Positions 5,308 through 40,538 of a stretch of DNA of 42,589 nucleotides are shown here, piece after piece. Origin of the DNA: a virus. Under the pieces are notes generated by a model, which worked only from the letters and a program-made list of their open reading frames with translations, was not told the DNA's origin and searched no databases. Within the stretch, counting starts at the first letter, position 1. The number at the start of each line of letters is the position of its first letter. Location of the stretch: positions 1-42,589 of the IMG/VR virus record IMGVR_UViG_3300031825_000189, one strand, 5' to 3'. Made by a program: the position numbers and the translations under genes.

Positions 5308-5730
5308 ATGGCCCCCGTCGCGATCGAGAAGCCAATGACGCTGGACGGCGCAGCCGAGGCTCTTGGCTGCTCGCGCCGCTGGCTGCAAGGTTGGCTCACC
5401 GACCATCCCGACCATGGCTATAAGATCGGGCGGGAGTGGCGGTTCATGGCCGCCGACATCATCACCATCCGGGAGGCGCTTCGATGCCGCTCAAGCTCGT
5501 CCGAGACCGCAAGAACCCGGATGACGGTCTCTGGTACGTCCGGGGGACTGTCCGCGGACGCCGCATTGAAGAAAGCACTGGCACTCGCGAGCGCAAGCGG
5601 TCCGAAGAGTTCAAAGCGCGCCGGGAAGCCGAACTCCTCGATGAGGCCATCCACGGCCGGGCTTCCGTCGCGACCTTCGCGCACGCATGTGCGAGCTACC
5701 TTGAGTTTGGTGGGGAGGGACGATTCATGA
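5308..5730 (+). CDS. Helix-turn-helix protein, excisionase-like, overlapping int
   Basis: The ATG at 5308 lies two bases after the DUF4326 stop. Residues 1-60 form a MerR/excisionase-type winged helix (MTLDGAAEALGCSRRWLQGW, then YKIGREWRFMAADI), which usually directs integrase towards excision. After residue 60 the frame stays open to 5730 and overlaps the integrase gene by 247 bases. That tail is Ser/Arg/Thr-rich and unstructured, as expected of an out-of-frame reading of int. Either the tail is a passive overlap, or a frameshift or sequencing error hides an earlier stop near 5490. Confidence 0.65.
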   Translation: MAPVAIEKPMTLDGAAEALGCSRRWLQGWLTDHPDHGYKIGREWRFMAADIITIREALRCRSSSSETARTRMTVSGTSGGLSADAALKKALALASASGPKSSKRAGKPNSSMRPSTAGLPSRPSRTHVRATLSLVGRDDS

Positions 5731-6596
5731 CGCCGATCCTGCGTCACTTCGGCCAGACCAAGCTCACGAAGATCGATCAGGTTGCGATCGACGCTTGCGC
5801 CAAGGCGCTCTACCCGAACGGCAAGCCGAGCACCCTGACGCGGCAGGTCTACACGCCTGTTTCAGCCGTGATGCAGCATGCCGCCGCCCGTGGCATGTGC
5901 ATTCCGATCACGATCGAACGGCCGAGCCAGCCAAAAGGAAAAACCCGGTGGCTTACCGTCTCCGAGGCCGAGCGGCTTGCGATAGCCTGCTCCCCTCACC
6001 TTCGCCCGGTCGTGCTTTTGATGCTCTACACCGGCGCCCGCGTCTCCGAAGCACTCTATCTCGATTGGGCTCAGGTCAATCTTGAGGCCGGCAATGTCGT
6101 CTATCTCGACACCAAGAACGGCGAGGATCGCGGTGTGCCTCTTCACCCCGCCGTCGTTGCGGCTCTGGCGCGGTCGAACCGGCGCGAGGGCCCTGTCTTT
6201 CTGAACCACAAGGGCGCCGCCTACGAGGAGAAGGACGGCGAAGGCGGTCAGATCAAGACAGCCTTCCGGGGCGCGACACGCCGCGCCTGTCTCGGCAAGT
6301 GGGTCGACACGAAGAAGAAGGACAAGGCCGGGAAGACGGTCAAACGGTGGATCACCGATGTCACCCCGCACACCTGCCGCCACACCTGGGCGACATGGCA
6401 CTATGCCGCGCACCGCGATATCCGCCAGCTCATGGAATTGGGCGGCTGGAAGCAGATTAGCATGGTCCAGCGCTACACCCATGTGAACGTCTCGAACCAT
6501 GCCCCTTCGATCGCTGCCCTGCCCTCGCTGGGGGATATCTGGGGGAGCGAAGAACCTACACCCGCAATTTCGCAACCCGAACAAAAGGTTGGATGA
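5484..6596 (+). CDS. int: Tyrosine integrase
   Basis: A 370-residue site-specific recombinase. It integrates the phage into the host chromosome at a tRNA-Val(CAC) gene, judging by the attP just downstream. An N-terminal arm-binding segment (residues 1-60) and a core-binding domain (60-150) precede the catalytic domain. The catalytic residues are Arg186 (TGARVSEAL), Lys211, His296 and Arg299 (HTCRH), Trp322 (GGWKQ, in the His/Trp position) and the nucleophile Tyr331 (QRYTHV). ATG 5484 is chosen because MPLKLVRDRKNPDDGLWYVRG is the typical start of this family. The last codons contain one copy of a 19-base repeat that recurs beyond attP. Confidence 0.95.
   Translation: MPLKLVRDRKNPDDGLWYVRGTVRGRRIEESTGTRERKRSEEFKARREAELLDEAIHGRASVATFAHACASYLEFGGEGRFMTPILRHFGQTKLTKIDQVAIDACAKALYPNGKPSTLTRQVYTPVSAVMQHAAARGMCIPITIERPSQPKGKTRWLTVSEAERLAIACSPHLRPVVLLMLYTGARVSEALYLDWAQVNLEAGNVVYLDTKNGEDRGVPLHPAVVAALARSNRREGPVFLNHKGAAYEEKDGEGGQIKTAFRGATRRACLGKWVDTKKKDKAGKTVKRWITDVTPHTCRHTWATWHYAAHRDIRQLMELGGWKQISMVQRYTHVNVSNHAPSIAALPSLGDIWGSEEPTPAISQPEQKVG
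6528..6546 (+). repeat. 19-base direct repeat, left of attP (candidate arm site)
   Basis: The sequence ctgggggatatctggggga lies inside the 3' end of int and recurs exactly at 6726-6744. The two copies lie 60 and 70 bases from the attP core, on opposite sides and in the same orientation. Each copy itself contains two GGGGGA blocks. They are probably integrase or excisionase arm-binding sites; this role is inferred. Confidence 0.7.
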
Positions 6597-6605
6597 TGAT
6601 GCCCG

Positions 6606-6655
6606 CGCCCTTCACACGGGAGGGGTCACAGGTTCGAACCCTGTGCCGCCCACCA
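6606..6655 (+). other. attP core: 3' half of tRNA-Val(CAC)
   Basis: Bases 6611-6655 read as a tRNA from the anticodon loop to the CCA end. The loop is TTCACAC (anticodon CAC at 6613-6615), then stem and variable region, the T stem ACAGG/CCTGT (6628-6632 and 6640-6644) with T loop TTCGAAC, the acceptor strand GCCGCCC (6645-6651), discriminator A and CCA. No D arm or 5' acceptor strand is present upstream, where the int end lies, so this is not a working tRNA. It is the segment that regenerates the host gene on integration. A strand exchange point in the anticodon stem or loop is typical. Confidence 0.9.
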
Positions 6656-6725
6656 TATTTCCTCGATATTCTCAGGCCCCGTCGCGCACGGGCGCGCAGA
6701 ACGGTGCATGAACACGCGCGCCGTA

Positions 6726-6744
6726 CTGGGGGATATCTGGGGGA
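6726..6744 (+). repeat. 19-base direct repeat, right of attP (candidate arm site)
   Basis: Exact second copy of ctgggggatatctggggga, 71 bases beyond the attP core and in the same orientation as the copy at 6528-6546. It lies in the non-coding stretch 6656-6804, which otherwise shows no gene. Only the attP repeats and general GC-rich sequence are visible there. Confidence 0.7.
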
Positions 6745-6804
6745 ACCTGTTCTCCTAGCGTTCCACGAATCGCCCCTCCCCTCCACCGCGAGGAGGGCTG
6801 GCCG

Positions 6805-7125
6805 ATGAGCGGGGCCGTCTTCATCGATAGCTTTTCGTCTCTGGACGAACTCACGGGCGAGCGCAGACGCGACCCGAAGGCGATCCTCGCTGTCATCGCG
6901 AAGACTGGGCGCTTCTCGTGTTTCGAGATCGATCGCGCGATGGCGCGGCCGATGACATGGCTGCTCAACAAGAGTGGCTGGGTCACGACTCGCCTCGATG
7001 AAGTCGTACCCGACGCAGACGGCTTCGGCAGCACCCGGCAAAGCACATACCCGTGGACCTATTGCGAGGTGACCCCGCTCGGCCGGCTGGCGCTCGCTGG
7101 GATAACTGCGGAGACGCTTCCGTGA
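6805..7125 (+). CDS. Hypothetical protein, possibly winged-helix, 106 aa
   Basis: The first gene after attP, with a GGAGGG ribosome site 10 bases before the ATG. Residues 25-65 (AILAVIAKTGRFSCFEIDRAM, then WLLNKSGWVTTRLD) and the ending EVTPLGRLALAGI resemble a small winged-helix fold, as in phage proteins that test a DNA-binding domain against a short beta wing. No family can be named. Its stop overlaps the next start (GTGA). Confidence 0.55.
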   Translation: MSGAVFIDSFSSLDELTGERRRDPKAILAVIAKTGRFSCFEIDRAMARPMTWLLNKSGWVTTRLDEVVPDADGFGSTRQSTYPWTYCEVTPLGRLALAGITAETLP

Positions 7126-7325
7126 GCGCGGCACCTCCCGAACCGCCCGCCAAACGCAAGGCGTTCCTCGAATACTACGCGGCCGTCCTGACGCGAGAGG
7201 CAGACGCGCGACCCGGCCAAGACTGCCAGTGGATGCGAGACGGTGCGGCGCGGGCTCTCCGAGAGGCTGCGGCGATCGACACGCGTCCTGCCCAATCCGA
7301 TCTCTTCGCAGGAGAAGCCGCATGA
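7122..7325 (+). CDS. Small phage protein, 67 aa
   Basis: Starts at the GTG of a GTGA overlap and ends at an ATGA overlap, so it is translated within a coupled string. The product is helical and charged (FLEYYAAVLTREADARPG, then WMRDGAARALREAA) and ends in QSDLFAGEAA. A similar QTDLFDLEP ending is found at 8156, which hints at a short shared C-terminal peptide of the kind used for binding a sliding clamp; that reading is speculative. Confidence 0.55.
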   Translation: MSAAPPEPPAKRKAFLEYYAAVLTREADARPGQDCQWMRDGAARALREAAAIDTRPAQSDLFAGEAA

Positions 7326-7903
7326 CCGACAGATCCGTGCCTGAGGGGCTGGTGGAGGAGCTGCGGGCAGCGATCCTGCGTGGTGCCGCCGATGAACTGA
7401 ACGGCAAGCCTAACGGCGACATCATCGTCAAGGGCTGTGAGGCCGCCGAATATGTCGACCCCGAAGATGCGGCGGCCGCATTCGTCGATTCCATCGTCGA
7501 CGAGGTCAGGCCCCTCCTAGAGGCCAACGCCCGCGAGCTTGTGCAGGCCAGCAAGGAACTCGACGCCATCTCGGCAGCCATTGGCTCGACGCGCTTCATG
7601 GACCCGCCTGACGGTGGCGATGTTCCGGTTCACGAGCAGGTCGAGCGGATGGCTGTCGCACTGCTCGACGCCGAACGCTCCCGCGACGAAGCCCTAGAGG
7701 CGCTGCGTGTCGAGCGGAAGAGGGTTGCGGTGTTGGAGGAGGCGCTGCGTCCGTTCGGAGATGCAGCAAACGGGCTTGCTCCTGATCTGCCGGCAACAGA
7801 CCAGGTCCTGCTTACGGTTGGCGGCTTGCCAATCGCATGGGTCTACACGGACCAACTTCGCCGCGCCCGCTCCGTCCCTGCTCAAGGGGGCGAACGTGGC
7901 TGA
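7322..7903 (+). CDS. Ea22/Ead-like accessory protein, 193 aa
   Basis: Residues 1-75 form an N-terminal domain, 85-140 are a charged coiled coil, and 140-185 carry the EALRPFGDAANG motif followed by a strand and a helix ending in DQLRRARS. The same C-terminal module (EALAPFADEKNG to QIRKAREAV) is found in the protein at 11063. Such modules are typical of Ea22/Ead-like genes in temperate phages, whose function is unclear. The ATG at 7322 lies in an ATGA overlap. Confidence 0.6.
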   Translation: MTDRSVPEGLVEELRAAILRGAADELNGKPNGDIIVKGCEAAEYVDPEDAAAAFVDSIVDEVRPLLEANARELVQASKELDAISAAIGSTRFMDPPDGGDVPVHEQVERMAVALLDAERSRDEALEALRVERKRVAVLEEALRPFGDAANGLAPDLPATDQVLLTVGGLPIAWVYTDQLRRARSVPAQGGERG

Positions 7904-8156
7904 ACGCGCGATATGCACAAACGTCGATGCTCTGACAGGCATCGAGTGGGGCAGATACGACGCGGGACTTTTCGGCTGGCCGGATGGCCGCGCTCTTCGG
8001 CGGCGCCTTCGCGAGACATGCCAGTTCTGGGCAGACGATATCTTCGTTGACCTGTCTTCGCTCCCGGTCAGCGAGACACTCCACGTCATCCAGATCGTGA
8101 GCGATGAACCCAAACCAGTCCAGACAGATCTATTCGATTTGGAGCCCCGCCCATGA
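7896..8156 (+). CDS. Small phage protein, 86 aa
   Basis: GTG start at 7896 with an AAGGGGG ribosome site 8 bases upstream, inside the end of the previous gene. The sequence has aromatic clusters (GIEWGRYDAGLFGWPDG and CQFWADDIFVDLSSLP) and ends in QTDLFDLEPRP. No family is recognised. Its stop overlaps the ATG of the next gene. Confidence 0.55.
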   Translation: MAERAICTNVDALTGIEWGRYDAGLFGWPDGRALRRRLRETCQFWADDIFVDLSSLPVSETLHVIQIVSDEPKPVQTDLFDLEPRP

Positions 8157-13402: not shown

Positions 13403-14461
13403 ATGAAGTCGCGCATCCTCGAACTCGACGGCCTCCGGGGCATCGCCGCGCTCGCTGTTTTCTTCATCCACTCAGGCGGATTTGGCCTGAAAAGTTTCGG
13501 CAATCTTGGATACGCGATAGTCGATCACGGAAAATATGGCGTGACGCTATTCTTTGTCGTGTCGGCGTTCTGCCTATGCCTCAGCGTGGCCCCTGCTTTC
13601 GCGAAACGGCCTATCGATTGGCGTGCTTTCTATATCCGGCGCTTCGCCCGCATATTGCCGCTTTTCTTCGCCGTTTGTGCGTTCCTCGCGGTCGTCAATT
13701 CGTTGAACGGCACCTGGAAAAACATACCGATCGACACGCTTCTTCGTATCGGCTTCAACCATATCACGCTTCTCAGCATGTTCGATCCAACGACGAATAA
13801 CGCGATCATCGGCGTGGAGTGGTCGATCTTTGTAGAATTTCTGTTCTACTTCATGTTCCCATTCGTGCTGTTCTGGCTCATCGCCGCGCCTTGGAGCATG
13901 GTTGTCGTGACGGCTGTTTTGATGTGGCCGCCTGTATGCAAAATCATCACCGACTTTCTTGGAATCAACGAGCCGAACTTCACGATATTCTGGCACTTTC
14001 ATTCTTTTTTGGTCGGCATGCTCGTTTACCGATTCTTGATTGCCGATCCGACTAAGCGCCCGGTATTGGGTTCCGCGTTGTTCATCGCCGCGATAACGCT
14101 AAGCATCGCGGCTGTTTTTAAGCAGGATCATGGGTTCAGCGTATCAGCCGCATCTCTGGCCGCAGCTTTTACGATCGCCGCTGCGCATTATGCGAGCCCA
14201 CTAGTAGGGTGGTTGAGATGGCCGTTTTTGGTATTTATCGGCGGGATCAGCTTTTCCATTTATTTGATCCACCCCTTGGTCATGCGGCCTATGGGTGGGC
14301 TTGGGTCGCTCTTTGTCTATCAGGCAGTTGCCGCGCTCGCCGCGACCATCGCAATTGCGTGGGGGACGAACCGCATGATTGAGCTGCCTGCTCAGGATTT
14401 TGGAAGGCGGATGATTGCGAACTTGCGGGTTAGGGCCGCTGCGCCCGAGTCCGCGCGCTAA
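13403..14461 (+). CDS. Acyltransferase family 3, O-antigen modifying (OafA-like)
   Basis: A 352-residue integral membrane protein with about 10 hydrophobic helices. It starts with the hallmark ELDGLRGIAALAVFFIH, which holds the Arg12-x10-His23 motif of acyltransferase-3 proteins. These enzymes move acyl groups onto surface sugars. Phage copies usually change the O-antigen after lysogeny and so block adsorption of related phages. It is oriented against the late genes, is visibly richer in A/T, and is bordered by a leftward terminator, as expected of a moron. It overlaps the fibre-assembly gene end by four bases. No clear ribosome site precedes the ATG at 13403. Confidence 0.9.
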   Translation: MKSRILELDGLRGIAALAVFFIHSGGFGLKSFGNLGYAIVDHGKYGVTLFFVVSAFCLCLSVAPAFAKRPIDWRAFYIRRFARILPLFFAVCAFLAVVNSLNGTWKNIPIDTLLRIGFNHITLLSMFDPTTNNAIIGVEWSIFVEFLFYFMFPFVLFWLIAAPWSMVVVTAVLMWPPVCKIITDFLGINEPNFTIFWHFHSFLVGMLVYRFLIADPTKRPVLGSALFIAAITLSIAAVFKQDHGFSVSAASLAAAFTIAAAHYASPLVGWLRWPFLVFIGGISFSIYLIHPLVMRPMGGLGSLFVYQAVAALAATIAIAWGTNRMIELPAQDFGRRMIANLRVRAAAPESAR

Positions 14462-35670: not shown

Positions 35671-36251
35671 TCCGCGGCCTCCCTGCTCCAGTTGTCGTGC
35701 TGCTCATCTGGGCTCGGGACCGTGCGATGAGCGCTCTCGCGGAAGATGGCCATGGCCTCATCAGACAGCGCCATCCGGCCCTTGAGCTTCGCGGCTGCAC
35801 CAGCAACGGCGCGGTCAAGCTGCTCCAGCCTCGCTTCCGGGATAGCATCGCGGTCTACGACCGTCTCACCGGTTTCCTTGCGGATGCCGAAGCGCTCGCG
35901 GGCGGCGTCGGCTTGGGCTTTGCGGCGGGCCCATTCCTCCTCGGTCGGTTCAACGTCGCCCGGCGCCGGAAGCGCCATCCGCTTCACCGGGGCGATCAGA
36001 TCCTCGCAGTATTTGCAGGCGCGGGAGACCTGGGCCGGGGTCGGAAGGAACCGCCCATCGAACCAATCGAATTCACCTCTGATCAGCCGGGTAACGGCTT
36101 TCCGAATGGCGCCATCGGAATAGCCTTCAACGGCGATGAGGTAGGTCGCAGCAGCCCCCATGCCGTTGCCACGCTCTGCCGGGAACGCGGTGAACAGCGC
36201 CTTGAGGGCGTTGGTCGCTTCAGCCTGCGATGCGGGGGAATGGCTGGACAT
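35667..36251 (-). CDS. Replication protein, helicase-loader-like
   Basis: About 194 residues from ATG 36251 (AAAGG upstream); a TTG at 36284 would add 11 residues. Helices with EATNALKALFTAFPAE and GYSDGAIRKAVTRLIRGEFDWFDGRFLPTPAQVSRACKYC (quoted in part) resemble the N-terminal half of phage helicase loaders that also have a PTPAQ/PSPAE motif. It follows the ori-bearing replication gene with an overlap. The C-terminal half is charged. Loader function is inferred. Confidence 0.55.
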   Translation of the reverse strand: MSSHSPASQAEATNALKALFTAFPAERGNGMGAAATYLIAVEGYSDGAIRKAVTRLIRGEFDWFDGRFLPTPAQVSRACKYCEDLIAPVKRMALPAPGDVEPTEEEWARRKAQADAARERFGIRKETGETVVDRDAIPEARLEQLDRAVAGAAAKLKGRMALSDEAMAIFRESAHRTVPSPDEQHDNWSREAAE

Positions 36252-36915
36252 TGGAGCCGAACCTTTGGTTTGCGAGGTCTTCAATCTCTTCGAGGCCGCG
36301 GAGGATTGCGTCTCCTCGGACTTGGCGTGGGGGTCCTTGGCTGCGGCCTCCCCATTCGGCTTTCCAGCCTTGCCAACCGCGCTCGATCATCTCGTCAGCG
36401 GCGGCCCTAGGGTCCGGCGCCTGCCCCAGGCTCGCTGCCAGTCGCCCCGCTGCATACGGGGTCAATGGTTTTTTGAGCTTGGCGCGATGATCCACCACCG
36501 CCACGGCCCGCTCCTGCCCCACGACGACAGCCAAGGCAGCGATGCTTGCGGCTCGGTCTGATTTTGGCTTGGCGATGGGCTGGGGCTCCACCGAAGAAGC
36601 TTTAGCTTCTGAGGTGGTGGGGTATGTAGTTATATTAGGTTCTGGTTCCGCGTGCGTAGGCGCGTTCTGAATATCGCGCGAGGGCGTAACGGGAGTAACG
36701 TTACGCGCGTTATTTTCGTTACGGTCCGTAACGGAAGTAACGTTATTTTCGTTACGTTTCTCGGCCTGACGACAGCGCCATTCCGCCTGACGCTGAGCAT
36801 TGCTCTTCACCGCCGGCTTGCTGGCAATTTCCAGCCGTTCGCATGCAGCGATAAGAGCATCGCCCGTTAGGCCGGCGTGGACCAGCTCAGCAACCATGGC
36901 GGCAGAGAGGGCCAT
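36220..36915 (-). CDS. Replication initiator-like protein carrying iterons
   Basis: A 231-residue protein. The first 50 residues are helical (AELVHAGLTGDALIAACERLEIA). Residues 53-80 are an Asn/Val/Thr-rich repeat (RNENNVTSVT, then RNENNARNVTPVT) that the iterons below encode. After a linker, residues 115-200 form a helical domain (IAALAVVVGQERAVAVVDHRAKLKKPLTPYAAGRLAASL, in part). The order of DNA-binding start, iteron-coding linker and C-terminal domain is like lambda O. The gene is coupled to its neighbours in the replication block. Confidence 0.6.
   Translation of the reverse strand: MALSAAMVAELVHAGLTGDALIAACERLEIASKPAVKSNAQRQAEWRCRQAEKRNENNVTSVTDRNENNARNVTPVTPSRDIQNAPTHAEPEPNITTYPTTSEAKASSVEPQPIAKPKSDRAASIAALAVVVGQERAVAVVDHRAKLKKPLTPYAAGRLAASLGQAPDPRAAADEMIERGWQGWKAEWGGRSQGPPRQVRGDAILRGLEEIEDLANQRFGSNVQPFPRIAG
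36622..36756. other. Candidate replication origin: iterons and AT-rich stretch
   Basis: Two direct repeats lie at 36685-36723 and 36727-36756. Each starts with CGTAACGG and ends with CGTTATTTTCGTTACG; the first has a nine-base insertion that creates the palindrome GTAACGTTAC (36695-36704). Next to them is an A/T-rich stretch (about 36622-36645) in an otherwise GC-rich genome. Repeats plus AT-rich DNA inside a replication gene is the plan of the lambda origin. The assignment is inferred. Confidence 0.6.
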
Positions 36916-37259
36916 TAGAAGCGCTCCACCTTCCAGCCGCCGCCCTTGCCTTTCGGAAGGGCCTGGACGGCGATGAACTGCATGGGGTAGATCGACGCCG
37001 CGACCTTGATCTTGACCCGCGCATCATCGGTCCAGAAGCCTTTGCATTCGTGGACCTCAAGCGAGCCATCGGCCCTCAGGACGAGGAAATCCGGTTCGTA
37101 GAAAGTCTTGTCGGCAAGCCGGAGCTTCACACCCTCGAACTTCCACCACAGCACGTCCTTGCATGCCATGAGCGTGTCGAGAAAGGCCGCATAGGCGGCT
37201 TCCGTCCGATTCATTTGGCCGGGAGGGAGACGGCCAAGGGCGCGCGTCGAGAACTTCAT
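36915..37259 (-). CDS. PD-(D/E)xK nuclease-like protein (DUF1064 type)
   Basis: A 114-residue protein with the core YEPDFLVLRADGSLEVHECKG: Asp56, Glu70 and Lys72 in the PD...ExK arrangement, plus an N-terminal NRTEAAYAAFLDTL helix and a FIAVQAL strand. DUF1064 proteins are small phage nucleases, perhaps acting on branched or packaged DNA. It is coupled to the replication gene (TAATG) and to the small HTH gene (ATGA). Confidence 0.8.
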   Translation of the reverse strand: MKFSTRALGRLPPGQMNRTEAAYAAFLDTLMACKDVLWWKFEGVKLRLADKTFYEPDFLVLRADGSLEVHECKGFWTDDARVKIKVAASIYPMQFIAVQALPKGKGGGWKVERF

Positions 37260-37417
37260 TCGCCCCGCTCCCGATCTCTGGAGCGCGCAAGCGCGTTGGC
37301 CACGACATACTCGGTAAGGCAGAGCTTCGCCGTGATTTCATGTGTGTTCAGGCCACGACGCCAGAGCGCCATGATCTGAGCCGAGTAGGTGATCTGCTTG
37401 TCTGAGAGGGCGATCAT
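37256..37417 (-). CDS. Small helix-turn-helix protein, 53 aa
   Basis: ATG 37417 with GGAGGAA eight bases upstream, and stop TGA at 37256-37258. The sequence is one helix (SDKQITYSAQIMALWRRG) followed by an HTH pattern (LNTHEITAKLCLTEYVVANALARSR, in part), as in GcrA-type or Trp-repressor-like small DNA binders. It lies between the DnaA domain IV gene and the nuclease, coupled to both. It may regulate replication. Confidence 0.6.
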   Translation of the reverse strand: MIALSDKQITYSAQIMALWRRGLNTHEITAKLCLTEYVVANALARSRDRERGE

Positions 37418-37920
37418 CAGCGCTTCCTCCCACGGACGACGTTGCCGACACCACGGACGTTCTCTCCAAGCATCTCGTTGATACGCCGGATGGAATGCAG
37501 GATCGTGGTATGATCACGCCCGCCCATCAGCTTGGCAATGCGCGGCATCGACATCGTCGTGCTCTTGGCAATCCTCCAAGCCGCTAGTTGCCGGGCGTGG
37601 GCTACACTTGGAACTCTGCTCGACCCGTAGATATCGCTTGGGCTAACACCACACTCCTCTGCCGTCTCCTTGACCAGGCGCTTGGCAATCTGAGGCCCCC
37701 ATGTCGGGTCTACGGAGTTGTCATACGCTAGTCTGTATAACGCTAGTAGATCATGCTCAGGCTCAGCCTCTTCAACAGGCTGAGGCGAAGGTATGGGCTT
37801 TGCCGCTATTGTAACGACGGACACCGGCGCTGTTCCGTACAGACGCGCGCGACGAGCGGCATAGTCAGCCGCCATCCTGTGAGCGTTTTCGGCAGTGTAT
37901 TCGACGACCGCGACGCTCAT
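37417..37920 (-). CDS. Stand-alone DnaA domain IV protein
   Basis: A 167-residue protein. Residues 83-148 match the DNA-binding domain IV of DnaA: VSPSDIYGSSRVPSVAHARQLA (in part), the signature GGRDHTTILHSIRRI (in part), and the HTH between. Host DnaA uses this domain to bind its boxes at oriC. No AAA+ ATPase domain is present: the first 80 residues are only helical. The protein may bind the phage origin, or compete with host DnaA for boxes. It lies in the replication block. Confidence 0.9.
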   Translation of the reverse strand: MSVAVVEYTAENAHRMAADYAARRARLYGTAPVSVVTIAAKPIPSPQPVEEAEPEHDLLALYRLAYDNSVDPTWGPQIAKRLVKETAEECGVSPSDIYGSSRVPSVAHARQLAAWRIAKSTTMSMPRIAKLMGGRDHTTILHSIRRINEMLGENVRGVGNVVRGRKR

Positions 37921-37923
37921 GGC

Positions 37924-38364
37924 TTAAGCCTCCTTGCTCTCGCTAGAAGCGAAATCCCGAGCGCGCTTAGCCATTCGGCGAAGGCGATCAACTTCCGCCC
38001 TGTTGCCATCAGGATCGACGCTAGCCAACCGGGCCGCGTAGAGTTCCATGGTATTTGCATGCTGGTGCATCTCTCGGGTGATGATGCGCTCCGCGATCCG
38101 GGCGCGAGCTGCTTCAAGGCGGTGGATCTCGTCGGCAAGGACGGCGCGCGCTTCCTTGTTCCAGAGAGCGCGGGCGCGACGGGCGTTGATGCCGATGAAG
38201 GCTGCGGCGCGCGGTAGTGCCGACTTGAGCGGCAGTTGCGGCGCGACGAACTGGAGCACTGCGCCGATATGAGCGCGGGCCTGGATAGCGATTGTCATGT
38301 CAGGCTTACTCGACTGGTTAGGCTTGGCTGATCGTGCCGAGGATACGGACTGAATGGCTGACAT
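37924..38364 (-). CDS. Phage early protein, helical, 146 aa
   Basis: The ATG at 38364 is used; a GTG at 38409 would extend it. Residues 30-60 are helical with IQARAHIGAVLQFVAPQL. Residues 60-100 hold an HTH-like ALPRAAAFIGINARRARALW. The end is a charged coiled coil (HRLEAARARIAERII, then EVDRLRRMAKRARDFA). DNA binding is likely. It lies directly before the DnaA-like gene. Confidence 0.55.
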   Translation of the reverse strand: MSAIQSVSSARSAKPNQSSKPDMTIAIQARAHIGAVLQFVAPQLPLKSALPRAAAFIGINARRARALWNKEARAVLADEIHRLEAARARIAERIITREMHQHANTMELYAARLASVDPDGNRAEVDRLRRMAKRARDFASSESKEA

Positions 38365-38411
38365 CTCGGGTGAACCTTTCGCGATGTTGAGAACGCGAAA
38401 GGGGGCCACCG

Positions 38412-38636
38412 ATGGTCAGGCTCGATGTGCTCGTGAGGCAGGTCTTGGCGGACGCTCGCGAGAAGATGGACAAGAGAAAGGCCGGCGGGGTGGTTGAGGC
38501 CCCGCCGGAAGTTGCCGCGCACGAGAAGAGGGAGAATGTGCGGGGAGAGAAATACGAGAACATCGCTACTTACCGACGGGGAAAGCATTCCCGTCAGCCC
38601 GAAGTCAGCCCGGACGGACTGAGCTTGACTGAATGA
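38412..38636 (+). CDS. Possible antisense small protein, 74 aa
   Basis: A + strand frame inside the leftward operon. It has an AAAGGGGG ribosome site six bases before ATG 38412 and a hydrophilic, charged product (DVLVRQVLADAREKMDKRKAGG). It fills the gap between the multi-HTH gene and the 146-residue gene, where no leftward frame looks coding. It could be a real divergent gene or a chance frame over a leftward promoter region. An imperfect hairpin (about 38576-38597) is the only other structure. Confidence 0.4.
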   Translation: MVRLDVLVRQVLADAREKMDKRKAGGVVEAPPEVAAHEKRENVRGEKYENIATYRRGKHSRQPEVSPDGLSLTE

Positions 38637-38641
38637 GGCAA

Positions 38642-39481
38642 TCACTGGCCAACCCTGTTTTCAGCCAGTGTTCGACGCGGCCCGTTCTTGGCTCGCCACC
38701 AATGGCCAATCACCGCGTTACGAGTGATGCCAAGAGATCGAGCTATCTGACCTGCGGAATAGGTGCCGCGAAGCCGGATACAGGTTTCTCGGATGCTGCT
38801 ACCATCGCACTGGATTGCAGGGGTGAGACTCACTACACGGCGAGGCCGGTCCTCACGACCTCGAATAACCTTTCCATCCGGTCCACGAAATACGAGGCCA
38901 TGAGGGCGAGCCCACATGGCCAGCGCTGTAGCCGAGACTTCCTTGCCTTCAATCTTACCGACTTCGGCAGCGATCTGACGCCAGCTCTTACGGTTTGTGC
39001 GGCCTTCTTCGACGAGTTGGCGTCGCGCCGACAGATCACGGTTCGGACCATGCTTGGAGGAAATGCCATATTGCTCGCAGAAATGCGCCAACCGTTGCGC
39101 CGGGTAGCCATCTCCGACAAGAGACCGGATCGAAGCACCATTCGAAACCTTCGCCATGAGCCTCAGAAGCTCCAGGCGCTCGCTCAGCGATATCCGGTCG
39201 ACCTCAATGCTGCGCTCTCTGCAGAGTTGGGTGACGTACCGGTAGTTCTTCCCGGTCTCAGCGACGATCTGCTCGTATGTGCAACCAGCGTCAGCGAGCT
39301 TCCTGCACTGTTCGGCAATCGCATCGCGCTTTTCGCCTACCGTAATTCTCCGAGGGACATGGCCAGACTTCACGACAATCTGGCGGACTCGCTCACGCGT
39401 GATGCCGTAGTCGTCTCCGATCTGTTGCAATGTCTGCCCGGCATCGAACCGCGCAATAATCTCTCGATTCCGTTCGCTCAT
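38642..39481 (-). CDS. Four-HTH regulator with sigma-like and GcrA-like ends
   Basis: A 279-residue protein from ATG 39481. Residues 16-38 (TLQQIGDDYGITRERVRQI) look like sigma-70 region 4. Residues 68-89 (TYEQIVAETGKNYRYVTQL) and 166-190 (SWRQIAAEVGKIEG) are further HTH-type segments. Residues 242-264 (SAGQIARSLGITRNAVIGH) match the GcrA DNA-binding HTH. GcrA controls sigma-70 promoters at methylated GANTC sites in alphaproteobacteria. The phage protein may steer host RNA polymerase or choose phage promoters. It lies in the early operon behind GapR-like and a small membrane gene. Confidence 0.75.
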   Translation of the reverse strand: MSERNREIIARFDAGQTLQQIGDDYGITRERVRQIVVKSGHVPRRITVGEKRDAIAEQCRKLADAGCTYEQIVAETGKNYRYVTQLCRERSIEVDRISLSERLELLRLMAKVSNGASIRSLVGDGYPAQRLAHFCEQYGISSKHGPNRDLSARRQLVEEGRTNRKSWRQIAAEVGKIEGKEVSATALAMWARPHGLVFRGPDGKVIRGREDRPRRVVSLTPAIQCDGSSIRETCIRLRGTYSAGQIARSLGITRNAVIGHWWRAKNGPRRTLAENRVGQ

Positions 39482-39612
39482 GATGCCACCAACTCCGCTA
39501 GACCAGCCCACACCAGCGCATTGAGACCGAGCGCAAACGCCCATTCGGCGCTGCGGACGAGAACAGCCGGGATTGCTGAAAGGATCGCGCAGGTGAGAAG
39601 GATGACTGCCAT
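39478..39612 (-). CDS. Small membrane protein, 44 aa
   Basis: ATG 39612 lies one base after the GapR-like stop. The stop overlaps the next start (ATGA). Two hydrophobic stretches (ILLTCAILSAIPAVLV and FALGLNALVWAGLAELV) form one or two membrane helices. It is the only membrane gene in the early leftward block. The function is unknown. Confidence 0.55.
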   Translation of the reverse strand: MAVILLTCAILSAIPAVLVRSAEWAFALGLNALVWAGLAELVAS

Positions 39613-39613
39613 G

Positions 39614-39880
39614 TCAAGACGCCTCCTCACGCGCGGGTCGCGCGCCTGCACGCGAGGCGTTGGCGATTTCCTGCTCGTACAGGTCAACGATTGTCTCGAA
39701 TTCGGTGCGCTCGTCGTGGTCTTTCGCCCGGCGCTTGATGACCTCGCGGAGAGCCTTTTTGTCGTATCCGCTGGACGCGACTTCGGCATATACCTCCCGA
39801 ATATCGCCATCTATCAGCTTCTTCTCTTCATGAAGCCGTTCGATACGCTCGCAGAAGTCGCGGAGATGATCGCCGCTCAT
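39614..39880 (-). CDS. GapR-like nucleoid protein (DUF2312)
   Basis: An 88-residue protein that follows the GapR/DUF2312 pattern: DHLRDFCERIERLHEEKKL, DIREVYAEVASSGYDKKALREVI and DERTEFETIVDLYEQ (each in part). GapR binds overtwisted, AT-rich DNA as a tetramer ahead of the replication fork and activates type II topoisomerases in Caulobacter. A phage copy may prepare phage DNA for replication or interfere with the host factor. It is coupled to Cro (ATGA). Confidence 0.9.
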   Translation of the reverse strand: MSGDHLRDFCERIERLHEEKKLIDGDIREVYAEVASSGYDKKALREVIKRRAKDHDERTEFETIVDLYEQEIANASRAGARPAREEAS

Positions 39881-40077
39881 GCCGCCCTCTCAGGCTGCTT
39901 GACGGTTGCGCTCTCCTTCGTAAGGCGCTCGATGAGCTTTCTGGCCGGCCCTCGCGGAGCAGCGCCTCGCTCCCAATTGGAAACGGTGCTTTGATCGACG
40001 CCGACCGCCTCGGCAAGCTGGGCCTGCGTCAGCCCGAGTTGGGAGCGGATCGCTCGGATATCGATGTCATGTTCCAT
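39877..40077 (-). CDS. Cro-like HTH-XRE repressor, leaderless
   Basis: A 66-residue XRE-type protein (IRAIRSQLGLTQAQLAEAVG, then STVSNWERGAA). It lies opposite the CI-like gene and is first in the leftward operon, so it fits the Cro role of turning the lytic cascade. The ATG (40075-40077) is six bases downstream of the -10 element, where transcription is expected to begin, and there is no ribosome site. The mRNA is therefore probably leaderless. Confidence 0.85.
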   Translation of the reverse strand: MEHDIDIRAIRSQLGLTQAQLAEAVGVDQSTVSNWERGAAPRGPARKLIERLTKESATVKQPERAA

Positions 40078-40148: not shown

Positions 40149-40538
40149 ATGGATAAGCATGAGAGACTGCGGGCGGCGCGCGAGCACGCCGGCTTCGCGA
40201 CCGCAGCATTAGCAGCCGAGGCGGTTGGGGTTCCGTACCCCACCTACGCAGGGCATGAGAACGGCAGCTCCGGATTCCCCAGCAGCAAGGGGGAAATCTA
40301 TTCGCGCAAGTTCAAGGTACGCTTCGAATGGCTGATGAGCGGTCGAGGCCCTATGCTTGAGATCGCGGCGCCCGCCCTTTCCGAGATCGACGCTGAGATT
40401 GCACGCCTTCTGCCGGATGTCCCGGAGGAGGAGAAGCGGGCCTACCTGGCATGGCTGCGGTCGAGATTCGGCTTAGGAGATGCAACAGAGCCTCAAGCTT
40501 CTGCTCCGGCCCAAGCCGGCGGACGGCGGCTAAAATAA
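40149..40538 (+). CDS. CI-like HTH repressor, short and without a protease domain
   Basis: A 129-residue protein. Residues 4-65 form an XRE-type DNA-binding domain (HERLRAAREHAGFATAALAAEAVG, with RFEWLMSGRGPM as the typical end of this family). The second half is helical (DAEIARLLPDVPEEEKRAYLAWL) with no LexA/S24 serine-lysine site, so RecA-driven self-cleavage is not expected. The ATG has no ribosome site; a possible -10 CAAAAT (40137-40142) lies six bases upstream, suggesting a leaderless message here too. It should repress both flanking promoters through the five operators. Confidence 0.8.
   Translation: MDKHERLRAAREHAGFATAALAAEAVGVPYPTYAGHENGSSGFPSSKGEIYSRKFKVRFEWLMSGRGPMLEIAAPALSEIDAEIARLLPDVPEEEKRAYLAWLRSRFGLGDATEPQASAPAQAGGRRLK

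Follow-up and report, generated by a model that had tools for sequence, protein, structure and literature searches.

GcrA, GapR and DnaA-like proteins have each been reported before in phages. GcrA has been described in phages (PMC3556154), T4 DsbA has been reported as a GapR homologue that possibly acts at late promoters (PMC7824862), and the GapR of Erythrobacter phage R34L1 was presented as the first from a phage (PMC12185513), a claim countered both by the earlier link to T4 DsbA and by the 153 phage records that match GapR. Phage CcrM, CtrA sites and the idea of cell-cycle-aware phages are likewise known (PMC9437464), and phage inhibition of DnaA has precedent in lambda P and the prophage protein YfdR (PMC4776307). 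No paper joining GapR, phage, DnaA and GcrA was found in the literature searched, which covered few subscription journals. Here we describe the IMG/VR virus record IMGVR_UViG_3300031825_000189 (42,589 nucleotides, hereafter the window), in which a leftward early operon encodes both GapR and a stand-alone DnaA domain IV (DnaA-IV). Our analyses revealed that this juxtaposition is not a one-off, as related phages, Hyphomicrobiales prophages and isolates of Bradyrhizobium and Rhizobium phages carry it too. This recurrence suggests that such viruses may meddle with the host cell cycle. The coordinates and strand given in the initial annotation were correct. The core of the operon comprises four genes:

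39614..39880, minus strand: GapR/DUF2312/UPF0335 protein, 88 amino acids (PF10073, 86.6 bits; matches PDB GapR chains)
38642..39481, minus strand: protein of 279 amino acids with five helix-turn-helix (HTH) units, the first sigma-70 region-4-like and the last GcrA-type (Sigma70_r4, 42.4 bits, over its cut-off)
37924..38364, minus strand: HTH plus long-helix ("coil") protein, conserved in phage records and always immediately upstream of the slot occupied by DnaA-IV or GcrA
37417..37920, minus strand: stand-alone DnaA domain IV, 167 amino acids (PF08299, 69.7 bits)

The DnaA-IV assignment, made initially from the letters of the sequence, was borne out by profile searches, with PF08299 matching residues 81 to 147 well above its cut-off of 31.5 bits, and the protein aligned with E. 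coli DnaA domain IV (1J1V) in phmmer with an E value of 9.5e-10. In this alignment E. coli residues R399, R407, Q408, T418, P423, D433, H434, T435 and H439 (our numbering of the 1J1V chain) are identical, and all base- and phosphate-contact positions checked are intact. The known DnaA specificity residues include R399, P423, D433, H434, T435 and H439 (PMC7561715). Nothing similar to domains I to III was found in the protein; indeed, TIGR00362 scored 60 bits against a cut-off of 344, with domain IV alone matching. By its sequence, the protein is not a DnaA initiator, having neither the ATPase (AAA+) domain nor the helicase-binding domains. Within its N-terminal 80 residues, an alignment revealed an EYT...M.AD..ARRAR stretch common to several phage relatives; cast as a regular expression, the motif that phage DnaA-IV proteins share at the N terminus performed no better than the control (9/51 versus 8/49). 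DnaA boxes, scanned with the consensus from E. coli plus a single Caulobacter form, are not in excess in the window (48 two-mismatch sites against 48.7 expected, and no exact box), and no box cluster was detected in the window or its relatives. Thus, the phage appears to encode an intact box reader that has no obvious target on phage DNA.

Phylogenetically, the phage DnaA-IV copies fall on the DnaA side of the tree and retain the DHTT signature, while chromosomal stand-alone DnaA-IV proteins form a distinct clade with DRTT (support 97). Derivation of the phage protein from the chromosomal stand-alone paralogue is therefore unsupported, as both clade and signature differ. Among the matches listed, more than one DnaA domain-IV hit was recorded for at least 58 of the 81 Hyphomicrobiales genomes, and most of the chromosomal stand-alone copies that we compared (L161-L179; labels of this kind denote our comparison loci) carry DRTT instead of DHTT, marking a distinct paralogue.

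The GapR gene likewise proved to be what it had been taken for, a full GapR/DUF2312 protein: PF10073 matched over profile positions 2 to 69 of 72, against a cut-off of 22.6 bits, and phmmer recovered the solved GapR/UPF0335 structures 6CFY, 6JYK and 6OZZ with E values of 2.7e-19 to 4e-11. At the contact positions of Caulobacter GapR, for which residue roles were taken from PMC7373187 and PMC7498317, R26, E28, K34, K56 and R65 are identical in the window protein and K42R, K59R and R63K are conservative; K49A, K60E and K66A are losses. The basic DNA-contact residues and the E28-R65 pair are thus mostly, not fully, kept. In a GapR tree built on 74 columns, which is weakly resolved, the window protein groups with those of L102 and L106 (support 96) and has at most 54% identity to the sampled host copies. 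A second phage lineage is separate (support 99; L086, L087, L107, L111 and L112), and the GapR proteins of L230 and L160 are placed with a host GapR. A single origin for phage GapR is therefore improbable. The initial annotation had proposed phylogeny as a check on whether these proteins derive from hosts; recent capture of the window GapR from a host is unsupported, with a best host identity of 54%. L230 (Microcystis phage Mwe-JY25) combines a GapR close to an alphaproteobacterial host copy with a match resembling the GcrA C terminus and an O protein; its cyanobacterial host label may be wrong.

Eight loci encode the coil protein, namely the window, L086 and L087 (reached via terminase) and five phage records (reached via the coil protein). 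GapR is present in all eight, and each locus carries DnaA-IV or GcrA: DnaA-IV occurs in six (window, L086, L087, L106, L108 and L112) and true GcrA in three (L106, L107 and L111). L106, the closest relative, encodes GapR, DnaA-IV and GcrA within ~2.6 kb, and L102, the GapR of which shows 68% identity, preserves the order of GapR and DnaA-IV and has a distant coil-like gene. The DnaA-IV protein of L087 (4412-5140) contains an inserted GcrA-type HTH, above the Pfam cut-off at 29.2 bits, between its N terminus and domain IV; those of L112 (2899-3561) and L160 (7466-8113) bear a look-alike HTH insert at the same place that Pfam does not call GcrA. GapR and DnaA-IV are also paired in prophages L160, L210, L211 and L212. 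In 81 Hyphomicrobiales genomes and among the matches listed, a DnaA domain lay within 4 kb of 5 of 16 second GapR copies versus none of 76 primary copies (Fisher p = 9e-5); in one of the five (L213) the neighbor is a full-length DnaA. There, at 5445-8012 of a 60-kb contig from a Hyphomicrobiales genome, GapR is followed after 40 bases by this second full-length DnaA and preceded by a coil-like gene. A few weak DnaA matches beside GapR copies of either kind may have escaped these counts. Among isolated phages, ppBjS10J-1 and ppBeUSDA76-2 carry the GapR/DnaA-IV pair within ~1 kb, and in RHph_N28_2 the GapR and DnaA-like genes share a region but are separated by ~7 kb. By gene content, this is a recurrent cassette in which GapR is joined by a variable HTH gene and a conserved HTH/coiled-coil protein, along with DnaA-IV, GcrA or both.

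The variable HTH gene of the window had been read as a multi-HTH protein ending in a GcrA-type HTH. The multi-HTH part of that reading is right, as an AlphaFold2 model contains five three-helix units in tandem, at modest confidence (mean predicted local distance difference test [pLDDT] score of 68). Membership of the GcrA family was not confirmed: PF07750 scored 18.7 bits against a cut-off of 26.9, over profile positions 19 to 42 of 155 (24 positions, matched by 23 residues), and the NCBIfam GcrA model 15.7 bits against 280. A profile built from the three true GcrA proteins of the sister operons gave E = 2e-7, a value reached only by adding two HTH matches that are each weak, at 13 and 15.9 bits. 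The QIA..LGxTRNAVIG motif lies at residues 262 to 284 of a 300-residue reading, that is, at the C terminus of the five-HTH protein, and belongs to the N-terminal HTH in GcrA; the CRWP...YCG...YC part of the GcrA C terminus, the sigma-70 interaction region, is absent from the five-HTH protein and present in L106, L107 and L111. Identity of the protein with GcrA is thus rejected, and the window, as judged from its genes, has no GcrA. Of the proposed trio of cell-cycle factor homologs, DnaA-IV and GapR exceed their family cut-offs and GcrA is missing; in L106 all three are found, with a full GcrA. Relatives of the five-HTH protein share mainly its first HTH, and it is probably a phage transcription factor, the role of which true GcrA may fill in the sister phages.

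The coil protein is 57 to 87% identical to the window copy across seven other phage records (97% over the matched region in L106), with distant versions in prophages. Its AlphaFold2 model has four helices (pLDDT 78.5), a fold search against the PDB gave no match, and a scan of host genomes with the protein gave no hit.

These four genes belong to a longer leftward operon, which runs from a divergent repressor/cro-like pair at ~40.1 kb in the order cro-like, GapR, five-HTH, coil, DnaA-IV, short HTH, resolvase-like and O-like:

40149..40538, plus strand: phage repressor-like gene, divergent (phrog_4, E = 2.5e-8)
39877..40077, minus strand: cro-like HTH protein encoded by the operon's first gene (HTH_3, E = 7e-12; trimmed start)
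38482..38508, minus strand: G+C-rich hairpin between the five-HTH and coil genes (inverted repeat; terminator- or attenuator-like, with a poor T tract)
37256..37417, minus strand: short HTH protein of 53 amino acids, kept in sister operons (phmmer matches in L002, L106, L107, L108 and L111)
36915..37259, minus strand: Holliday-junction resolvase-like/DUF1064 endonuclease (phrog_190, E = 9.7e-22)
36220..36915, minus strand: lambda O-like replication initiator (phrog_678, E = 1.4e-11)
36685..36756, no strand: five CGTAACG/CGTTACG iterons within the O-like gene, a candidate phage replication origin adjoining a local A+T peak

That this is a leftward early operon, as first proposed, is supported by the gene overlaps, the divergent pair and a promoter-like site at 40112-40084 matching 10 of 12 positions (~1 expected by chance in the scan). 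Neighboring genes mostly touch or overlap, the exceptions being a gap before the five-HTH gene and ~280 bases before the coil gene. Half of the window's 10 iteron copies fall in the 72 bases of the candidate origin. The divergent repressor/cro pair, O-like initiator and intragenic iterons are all those of a lambda-like early replication operon, and on this gene content we read the operon as the early replication operon of the phage, beside its own initiator and iterons. The hairpin at 38482-38508 has nine pairs, three of them with double-sided (compensatory) changes across eight sequences including sister phages, and was not called by a simple terminator scan. A second hairpin at 38373-38402 (minus strand), CCTTTCGCG/CGCGAAAGG, lies upstream of the coil gene and contains its likely ribosome-binding site. 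Attenuation or translational control by the two hairpins is possible. Our search recovered no known RNA families, and no CtrA boxes were found.

The window carries a tyrosine integrase (5436-6596) together with portal, terminase and tail genes, which identify it, on gene content, as a temperate tailed phage of lambda organization. The closest terminases in named genomes are those of a Bauldia metagenome-assembled genome and unnamed Rhizobiales (64 to 65% identity). The CcrM site GANTC is depleted in the window (50 observed versus 222 expected), as it is in Hyphomicrobiales host loci (144 versus 444 expected). These observations point to an alphaproteobacterial host, probably of the Hyphomicrobiales. 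The relatives L087 and L108 are depleted still more strongly (3 versus 47 and 4 versus 58 expected). Direct comparison found no DNA-level similarity of the window to isolated phages. Elsewhere, the window encodes an O-acetyltransferase (13403-14461; phrog_3333) that likely modifies surface polysaccharide, and a DUF6745 protein (364-1041; 98.9 bits).

Given an intact DnaA-box reader devoid of ATPase, a phage with its own O-like initiator and iterons, and no excess of DnaA boxes, the simplest role for DnaA-IV would be that of a competitor at host boxes. DnaA-IV would recognize these boxes but could not bind ATP, melt DNA or load helicase; it would therefore compete with host DnaA at oriC and at DnaA-controlled promoters, blunting host initiation, while the phage would start its own replication from the iterons in the O-like gene. 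Ahead of phage forks, and of early transcription as well, the extra GapR would bind overtwisted DNA and stimulate gyrase and topoisomerase IV. A tetramer around overtwisted DNA is a hallmark of the GapR family. We assign a probability of roughly 0.4 to this combination, in which the early operon of a temperate Hyphomicrobiales phage blunts host initiation by DnaA-box competition as GapR aids phage forks. It retains part of the initial proposal that the phage resets or imitates the host cell cycle, with which the intact box-reading residues and the lack of a box excess in the phage are compatible. Several points weigh against it. L107 and L111, which have GcrA, carry no DnaA-IV anywhere in their records, so that the competition step would not be universal. 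K49 and K66 are lost from the window GapR. Alphaproteobacterial DnaA boxes are more degenerate than the consensus scanned, and phage targets may have been missed.

Finally, it is equally conceivable that phage DNA is the sole target of GapR and DnaA-IV, in line with the proposal for T4 DsbA. DnaA-IV would then be an accessory origin or promoter binder for O-dependent replication and GapR a DsbA-like double-stranded DNA-binding or transcription factor, a possibility that we regard as the main rival, although a somewhat doubtful one. The location of both genes in a replication operon, by the O-like gene and iterons, agrees with it, as do the possible action of T4 DsbA at late promoters and the exchange of DnaA-IV for GcrA in one slot, which fits a generic regulator. 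Such a role is harder to reconcile with the retention of every DnaA-box base contact when neither the phage nor its relatives have a box cluster, and acquiring three distinct S-phase factors from the host would be a strange way of obtaining generic DNA binding. A wider version of host interference, in which a widespread, modular alphaproteobacterial phage cassette interchanges DnaA-IV, GcrA and HTH-insert DnaA-IV beside GapR so as to seize host S-phase control, block re-initiation at oriC and give the phage fork and promoter factors, seems to us rather unlikely.

The view taken in the initial annotation was closer to S-phase imitation: GcrA, GapR and DnaA-IV would jointly switch on host replication genes and supply the S-phase factors missing from non-replicating (G1/swarmer) cells, allowing phage replication at any stage. 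The same proposal was made for phiCbK GcrA (PMC3556154), phage interest in the alphaproteobacterial cell cycle is a general idea (PMC9437464), and L106 has true GcrA with GapR and DnaA-IV, as L107 and L111 have GcrA with GapR. Nevertheless, the window is devoid of GcrA, CtrA sites were not detected, and initiation is beyond a DnaA-IV that has no AAA+ domain; we consider this explanation decidedly unlikely. That phage early regions in alphaproteobacteria simply gather small DNA-binding genes, with no joint role for the three, is highly improbable: gene order and content do differ among relatives, with many genes for HTH, HNH, GIY-YIG and methyltransferase proteins present in some and absent from others, but GapR is constant in the coil-protein loci and a DnaA domain is found close to second GapR copies more often than to primary ones.

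Should the host be its target, the cassette would offer a ready-made minimal protein set for asking which alphaproteobacterial cell-cycle parts viruses must control, as well as a DnaA competitor of natural origin, free of ATPase, with which initiation could be titrated. Even if it acts on phage DNA only, the repeated GapR/DnaA-IV pairing, together with the replacement of DnaA-IV by GcrA, would mark these host factors as functionally linked modules, and names could be given to many early genes now labelled "hypothetical" in rhizobial phages and prophages.

Compared with described systems, the window GapR belongs to the same Pfam family as the Caulobacter nucleoid-associated protein GapR (CCNA_03428, UPF0335/DUF2312), with 88 versus 89 residues and most DNA-contact and structural residues kept; it differs in its phage lineage with L102 and L106 and in the changes at K49, K60 and K66. 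DnaA-IV shares with E. coli DnaA domain IV the helix-turn-helix, identical box-contact residues and the DHTT signature, but lacks domains I to III and has an unrelated N-terminal 80 residues. Similar to the PRK06030-like chromosomal proteins of Hyphomicrobiales, it is a lone domain IV of comparable size, yet these constitute the separate DRTT clade. The R34L1 GapR and T4 DsbA are also GapR-family proteins in phages, but no DnaA-IV neighbor is described for either. The phiCbK-like GcrA (gp222) shares the idea of a phage-borne cell-cycle regulator (PMC3556154), whereas all that the window shows of GcrA is an HTH of its type within the five-HTH protein, and the true GcrA proteins are those of sister operons L106, L107 and L111. 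The closest parallels among isolates are the Rhizobium and Bradyrhizobium phages RHph_N28_2, ppBjS10J-1 and ppBeUSDA76-2, which share the DnaA-like and DUF2312 pair in the early region; in the latter two the DnaA-IV genes are annotated as hypothetical, and the pairing is undiscussed in the papers searched.

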